A DNA stretch of 64,000 bases, from assembly GCA_016184365.1 (NCBI GenBank), contig JACPCW010000078.1:1-64000 (forward strand). The letters run 5' to 3'. The position numbers and the translations under genes are program-made. The DNA is from Candidatus Rokuibacteriota bacterium. Its GTDB lineage: Bacteria > Methylomirabilota > Methylomirabilia > Rokubacteriales > CSP1-6. Below are positions 60,834-62,239 of the stretch, in pieces (position 1 is the first letter of the stretch; each line of letters opens with the position of its first letter). A model generated the notes under the pieces. That model made no database searches. It was not told the origin of the DNA and saw only the letters and a program-made list of their open reading frames with translations.

Positions 60834-61370
60834 TCACCCCTCGGCGTCGAGGACTTCGTGCGTCGTCGCCGGCATGTCGGCGATGCCGAACGCGCGGTGC
60901 AGCCGCCCGAGCATCAGGAACGCCGCGCTGACGAGGCCGAGCTCGACGACCTCCGCGTCGCGGAAATGGCGGCGGAGCTCCGCGACGACGCCGGCGTCGA
61001 TCGCCGTGTGGTCCGTGGCGAGCCGCTCGGCGAACCCGAGCGCCGCCGCTTCGGCCGGCGTGCGCGCGCCCGCGTCCGCGAGCTTCGGCAGCAGGGCGTC
61101 GTAGAGGCCGGGAGCCTTCGCCGAAGGCTCGCGCGCCGTCCGTCAGCGATGGCAGGCGTTGAGCTCGGCGATGCGCAGCCGCACGAGCTCCTTCAGCGCG
61201 AACGGCAACCGGCCGCCATACTTCAGCGGGCGGTAGAACGCGAGGAACGCGGCGAACGCTTCCGGCGCATGACCGTAGACGCCGAACATCTCGTCGCCGG
61301 TGGCGCGCGCCATCGCGGCCAGCTCCGGATCGGCGATCTTTTCGGGCGCTAGTGTCGGGAGGTGCGCCAT
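60834..61370 (-). CDS. AhpD-like / carboxymuconolactone-decarboxylase-family selenoprotein candidate (TGA = Sec76)
   Basis: Reading through the TGA at 61145-61143 gives one 178-residue protein. The first 75 residues (GDEMFGVYGHAPEAFAAFLA, then LPFALKELVRLRIAELNACHR) are the usual N-terminal half of an AhpD/CMD-family protein. The rest, in the same frame, is its normal second half (APGLYDALLPKLADAGARTPAEAAALGFAERLATD, RRHFRDAEVVELGLVSAAFLMLGRLHRAFGI, given in parts). The TGA falls exactly on the second Cys of the CxxC redox pair: C73-H-R-U76. A perfect stem-loop follows (see next entry). The family reduces peroxides or disulfides with this pair. A plain nonsense mutation is the alternative; the intact rest of the frame argues against it. 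Confidence 0.82.
61112..61145 (-). promoter_or_regulatory. Candidate bacterial SECIS element with the UGA codon
   Basis: On the minus strand the TGA (61145-61143) is followed by 12 nt, then arm GAGCCTTC (61130-61123), loop GGC, and arm GAAGGCTC (61119-61112). The 8-bp stem is perfect. The loop starts 20 nt after the UGA with G in its first two positions. This meets the published bSECIS description: loop 16-37 nt from UGA, G among the first two loop bases, upper stem of 4-16 bp. Confidence 0.7.
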
Positions 61371-61495
61371 AACCGTCTCCTCGTCAGACTCGTAGTCGCG
61401 TTGCGAGCATCGTACTGCGGCTCGATGACGCGTATCATCACGTGGCGGCCGCTCAGAGGGTCGCTCATGCTCGTGATCGAAGCTGCCGCGGGGGT

Positions 61496-61759
61496 ATGTC
61501 CGTGAAGACGAATGAAGTGACGCTGTCCATTCCCGAGGAGACGCTGCTGGCTCTCAAGCTGACCCCGGCTGGTGTCGCCGATGAATTGCGTCTTGCTGCC
61601 GCGGTGAAGTTGTTCGAGCTTGGACGACTATCGTCCGGGGCGGCAGCGCTCCTTGCCGGCGTGCCACGGCCGGTCTTCCTTGCGAAGCTAGCGGACTACG
61701 GTGTGCCGACGTTTCGTCTCAGTGAGGCTGAGGTCGCCGAGGACGCGGCGCGTGCCTGA
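61496..61759 (+). CDS. UPF0175-family antitoxin-like protein
   Basis: An 87-residue protein. SIPEETLLALKLTPAGVADELRLAAAVKLFELGRLSSGAAALLAGVPRPVFLAKLADYGVP (shown in full only as its parts VADELRLAAAVKLFELGRLS and GAAALLAGVPRPVFLAKLAD) is the UPF0175 DNA-binding fold. Such proteins pair with DUF3368 PIN-type toxins. Its last eight bases overlap the next gene's GTG. Base composition here is more A/T-rich than the neighbours. Confidence 0.87.
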   Translation: MSVKTNEVTLSIPEETLLALKLTPAGVADELRLAAAVKLFELGRLSSGAAALLAGVPRPVFLAKLADYGVPTFRLSEAEVAEDAARA

Positions 61760-62239
61760 GGTCGTCGTCAATACCTCGCCGATGCAATACCTCTTTCAGA
61801 CAGGGCTACTCGAGATACTGCGTGCGTTGTACGGCACGGTCGTCCTTCCGGAGGCGGTCCAGATGGAGCTCGCGGAGGGGCGGTCGCGCGGCGTGGCGCT
61901 TCCAGATCCGACGTCCATGTCATGGATCACGATCCGAAGCGTTCGAAACCGAGCATTGTTGCCTCTTGTCACAGACCTCGGCCCGGAGAGCGTGAGGTTT
62001 TGGCGCTGGTCGCCGAGACGCCCGGTGCCGTCGCGCTCATCGACGATGCGATCGCCCGACGGCATGCTCAACTGCTCGGTATTCGATTCACCGGAACTCT
62101 CGGCGTTATTCTCAGAGCCCGCGCGGCTGGTCTGGTGCCGGCGGTAAGGCCGATACTGGATCGTCTGGATGCGCTCCGCTTTCGCCTCGATCCACATACC
62201 CGAGCGGCCGTCCTCAAGCTCGCCGGAGAGGTGAGTTGA
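61752..62239 (+). pseudogene. DUF3368 (PIN-like) toxin gene, frameshifted
   Basis: GTG 61752 opens PEVVVNTSPMQYLFQTGLLE, GTVVLPEAVQMELAEGRS, then MSWITIRSVRNRALLPLVTDLGP. At about 61980 the frame must shift by one base to continue as GEREVLALVAETPGAVALID, DDAIARRHAQLLGIRFTGTLG and so on to GEVS at 62239. Together this is a full-length DUF3368 protein of about 162 residues. A single base lost in the run GGCCCGG would explain it, so either the toxin is inactive or it is a sequencing error. It overlaps the antitoxin by 8 bp. Confidence 0.8.

Follow-up and report, generated by a model that had tools for sequence, protein, structure and literature searches.

The catalytic residues of AhpD from Mycobacterium tuberculosis are Glu118, Cys130, His132, Cys133, and His137. 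AhpD-like selenoproteins with a CxxU motif were described in 2005 from the Sargasso Sea, where they comprised 27 sequences (PMC1088965), and were reported again in 2008 in the GOS survey (PMC2398784). As cited in PMC13188914, a Methylomirabilota MAG has 63 predicted selenoprotein genes. In the 64-kb stretch of Rokubacteriales DNA analyzed here (the window), a gene on the minus strand at 60834..61370 almost certainly encodes, as judged from sequence comparisons, a genuine selenoprotein of the AhpD superfamily in which the UGA at codon 76 is read as Sec. The window protein shares with the known AhpD-like selenoproteins (COG2128, TIGR01926; PMC1088965, PMC2398784, PMC13188914) its place in the CMD/AhpD superfamily, a Sec that replaces the second Cys of CxxC, and a bSECIS-like element directly 3' of the Sec codon. 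It differs from them in its divergent sequence, in having an Arg four residues past Sec, and in its Rokubacteriales host. It is a divergent addition to the AhpD-like CxxU selenoproteins that were already known. A first reading of the sequence, made without database searches (the sequence-only reading), had suggested a known chemistry whose presence in this lineage might have gone unremarked. The first half of that suggestion holds for the AhpD-like CxxU chemistry, while the second needs qualifying, because Methylomirabilota have already been reported to be rich in selenoproteins (PMC13188914). In the literature searched, we found no report that, throughout the order, Sec predominates over Cys in this family branch.

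Among NCBIfam profiles, the top match of the window protein was TIGR01926 (peroxidase-related), and the score of 35.6 bits, under the cut-off of 81.8, points to a divergent subfamily. The second match was NF053654 (YciW-related (seleno)protein; GroundWater_YciW), which aligns over residues 31-150 and is matched at E <= 0.01 by 29/29 aligned members; at 30.1 bits, however, the window protein lies far under the curated cut-off of 310 bits and is therefore not a member of that family as it is curated. The Pfam CMD model PF02627 gave 19.1 bits and did not reach its gathering score of 23, and all 29 aligned relatives matched it at E <= 0.1. The window protein is thus better described as remotely homologous to the CMD/AhpD superfamily than as a scored member of PF02627, and its branch would be that of the peroxidase-related AhpD/CMD proteins. 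A profile of the 29 relatives matched the solved structures of PA0269 (2ijc, 2o4d), 2prr, and 2oyo with E values of 5e-30 to 2e-21, with 2ijc ranking first, and the single window sequence matched 2ijc at E 3e-11. PA0269 of Pseudomonas aeruginosa is thus the closest solved relative; it aligns over residues 35-156 with CAYC over CHRU and differs in being a Cys form and in having His at +4. An AlphaFold model computed on the single sequence had a mean pLDDT of 39.7 and was unusable.

The catalytic Glu and the CxxC/CxxU pair of AhpD peroxidases are present as E61, C73, and U76. As in M. tuberculosis AhpD, the Glu lies 12 residues before the first Cys of the C-x-x-C/U pair, whereas Arg75 and Arg80 occupy the positions of His132 and His137, and Sec that of Cys133. 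Here, we take residue 80 to correspond to the canonical AhpD His that lies four residues past the second Cys (His137 in M. tuberculosis). Among the aligned members, E61 is conserved in 28/29 and residue 76 is invariant, while residue 80 is Arg in 26/29 and His in two; His121 is found in 26/29 and Asp120 in 24/29. Because Arg replaces the His of the AhpD motif at +4 in 26 of the 29 members, peroxidase activity may not carry over to this branch.

The window copy stands alone, with a convergent amidohydrolase gene downstream and UPF0175 and DUF3368 genes upstream on the opposite strand. The latter two lie side by side (61442-62239, plus strand) in an arrangement that resembles a toxin-antitoxin pair. 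Only the frame 61922-62239 matches DUF3368; the N-terminal part may lie in the adjacent frame 61701-62147, and a frameshift in the DUF3368 gene is therefore possible. The orthologs of the selenoprotein gene have other neighbors. In one genome (G056), the start of the ortholog and the stop of a molybdopterin oxidoreductase gene overlap; in another (G042), the same is true of the ortholog's stop and the start of an acyl-CoA carboxylase carboxyltransferase gene. These overlaps with unrelated metabolic genes suggest recruitment into different operons.

By analogy with its relatives, we expect the product most likely to be a small, helical redox enzyme of the thiol/selenol type, and within that frame we consider it probable that it would act as a peroxide/disulfide reductase. 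Both the absence of the +4 His and the variable gene neighborhoods leave room for another substrate. A less probable but serious alternative is that the protein is a selenoprotein but not a peroxidase, i.e., a CMD-fold selenol enzyme that catalyzes, for example, reductive dehalogenation, as Bmp8, a debrominase with the CMD fold, does, or a reaction linked to a neighboring operon. The Arg at +4 and the Asp-His at 120-121 that is common in the family are in agreement with such a function, as are the match of the 29-relative profile to the Bmp8 structures 6ohi and 6ohj and the position of the orthologs in G056 and G042 directly against different metabolic genes. On the other side, the top NCBIfam profile is named peroxidase-related, as are several solved relatives. 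A broader scenario, in which the CMD fold has a selenium-dependent branch (C-x-x-U-x-x-x-R with the conserved Asp-His) that expanded in Rokubacteriales and left AhpD peroxide chemistry, with its copies recruited to different metabolic operons, appears unlikely to us.

The assignment as a selenoprotein applies to a coding sequence of 178 residues that extends from an ATG at 61370-61368 to a TGA stop at 60836-60834 and is supported by its frame, by similarity to orthologs along the full length, and by purifying selection on both sides of an internal TGA. A Shine-Dalgarno-like GAGGAG is located at 61377..61382 (minus strand), 6 nt 5' of the ATG. The frame contains exactly one internal TGA, codon 76 at 61145-61143, in the context N-A-C73-H-R-U76, and 102 residues follow it up to the natural stop. 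The codon for Cys73, which would be the resolving residue of the CxxU pair, is at 61152..61154 (minus strand), and Cys is found there in 28/29 aligned members. The sequence-only reading had described a single interrupting TGA at the second Cys of a CxxC pair, with about 100 family-like residues continuing beyond it, and all three elements of that description hold, with Cys at position 76 in those TGA-free homologs that align.

We identified three orthologs, with 74, 70, and 65% identity, one in each of three further genera within the family; they have a homologous Met start, similarity along the whole length, and the TGA in 3/3. Every match at E <= 1e-20 within the order has the TGA. The two further genomes from the genus to which the window belongs had no ortholog at E <= 1e-20, and tRNA-Sec was present in both, so the gene is patchy in its distribution. 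In a search of 95 genomes of the phylum, relatives were collected at E <= 1e-8, and 96/105 of these carry an in-frame TGA. Nine lack it, including one that does not cover the site; the three TGA-free sequences that could be aligned with the query have CEYC, CLSC, and CEYC, with Cys exactly at position 76. A scan of genome contigs added two distant Cys-type loci in Betaproteobacterial-type MAGs, both with CEFC and Cys at position 76. Thus, a comparison of homologs at this position, which had been proposed as a check, gave TGA in the orthologs and in nearly all closer relatives, and Cys, not Arg or Trp, in the distant ones. Among orthologs, pN/pS was 0.24-0.50 before the TGA and 0.41-0.53 after it, and third codon positions were the most variable on both sides. 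The pN/pS values together with the third-position excess after the TGA support that the downstream part is selected as protein.

These data bear on the explanation that the locus is a pseudogene or a sequencing error, in which a CxxC AhpD-like gene of the ordinary type acquired the TGA by nonsense mutation or through a wrong base call. The genome is a draft of 146 contigs and the TGA-free homologs have an ordinary CxxC, both of which are compatible with this explanation; nevertheless, it is refuted by the conservation of the TGA across genera, given that it is present in the three orthologs and, across many genomes, at the equivalent codon of almost every closer homolog. Moreover, selection at the protein level persists past the TGA, and a hairpin accompanies the TGA forms. 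We therefore regard a pseudogene or error as very improbable.

Consistent with selenocysteine insertion, the TGA is followed by a bSECIS-like hairpin, GAGCCTTC[GGC]GAAGGCTC, at 61112..61130 (minus strand), with its loop at 61122-61120. The published limits for a bSECIS are a loop of 3-9 nt, a stem of 4-16 bp, a G in the first two loop positions, and a distance of 16-37 nt from the UGA (PMC13188914). The hairpin 3' of codon 76 falls within every one of these limits, with a perfect stem of 8 bp that begins 12 nt 3' of the TGA, a GGC loop with G first, and a UGA-to-loop spacing of 20 nt; the stem, the loop, and the 12-nt offset are as the sequence-only reading had described them. When the codons downstream of the TGA were recoded synonymously, the observed stem score was reached in just 6/2000 trials, and a chance hairpin was ruled out on this basis. 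A scan of the 64-kb window for Sec-TGA candidates identified no second TGA with coding-like flanks on both sides and a comparable hairpin; the runner-up had a hairpin score of 14 versus 21 here.

The stem is also conserved among homologs that have the TGA. When the loop position was set to 20 nt, pairing at the six inner stem positions was seen in 83% of cells across 32 distinct sequences, and in a slid-partner control, in 40-50%. In seven Cys homologs, just 1-3 of the six inner pairs were formed at the hairpin position. The observed pairing was reached in 0/5000 shuffles of 14 non-redundant sequences, with the shuffles uncorrected for relatedness; the Cys forms and the slid control correct for relatedness in part. 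Among the orthologs, a compensatory change is evident, with CCT...AAG in two species and CCC...AGG in the other two, i.e., a T-A pair replaced by C-G. The expectation that the stem would be conserved in TGA homologs was thereby confirmed with covariation, and the stem is absent at this position in the Cys homologs.

The genome containing the window (G000; 5.58 Mb, 146 contigs, 90% complete) has the machinery for selenocysteine, as the sequence-only reading had asked to be checked. Contig C55 carries tRNA-Sec with anticodon UCA (70 bits; cut-off 47), SelB (368 bits; cut-off 242), and SelA (591 bits; cut-off 268). SelD was also found (349 bits; cut-off 125), and its gene has one in-frame TGA of its own (L024, C2:114596-115540), so that selD is probably itself a selenoprotein gene. 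A search for tRNA-Sec in G042, an 81% complete MAG with an ortholog, did not find it. An in-frame UGA is by itself silent on the inserted residue, but a reading as Trp, Gly, or Arg or leaky read-through in place of Sec has next to no probability, given that tRNA-Sec (UCA), SelA, SelB, and SelD are all encoded in the genome, that the UGA takes the place of the redox Cys, that the hairpin has bSECIS features, and that the gene itself terminates in TGA, which together with the Sec machinery also led us to reject an alternative genetic code.

For a selenoprotein read through UGA76, the following mechanism can be proposed. The ribosome would read UGA76 as Sec by means of SelB, Sec-tRNA(UCA), and the downstream hairpin; here, the machinery and the RNA element come from the sequence, and the insertion is predicted from them. 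The selenolate of Sec76 would then act as the nucleophile on a peroxide or another oxidized substrate, and Cys73 would resolve the intermediate as a selenenylsulfide, which a cellular dithiol donor may reduce.

G000 has four paralogs of the window gene, each with one TGA at the equivalent active-site codon. A search with the family profile identified one more TGA gene, with CAYU and a GGC-loop hairpin-like stretch 3' of the TGA (L086, C56:34033-34566), as well as a Cys form with CAYC. Altogether, the genome has six TGA genes of this superfamily, including the window copy. In one of the paralogs (L003, C88:37524-38042), Ala replaces the first Cys of the CxxU motif (Q-A-A-Y-U), leaving a Sec without an adjacent resolving Cys.

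Because the scores fall under the NCBIfam and Pfam cut-offs, automatic annotation probably truncates the gene, in line with the 75-residue truncated protein that the sequence-only reading expected from annotation. At their cut-offs, the NCBIfam and Pfam models tested miss this subfamily, and annotation pipelines probably report a 75-residue fragment not only here but also in the orthologs. The TGA in 96/105 relatives in the phylum, together with six such genes in a single genome, indicates a strong adoption of Sec by one superfamily in this lineage. The Sec and Cys forms provide a natural comparison set for asking why Sec persists.
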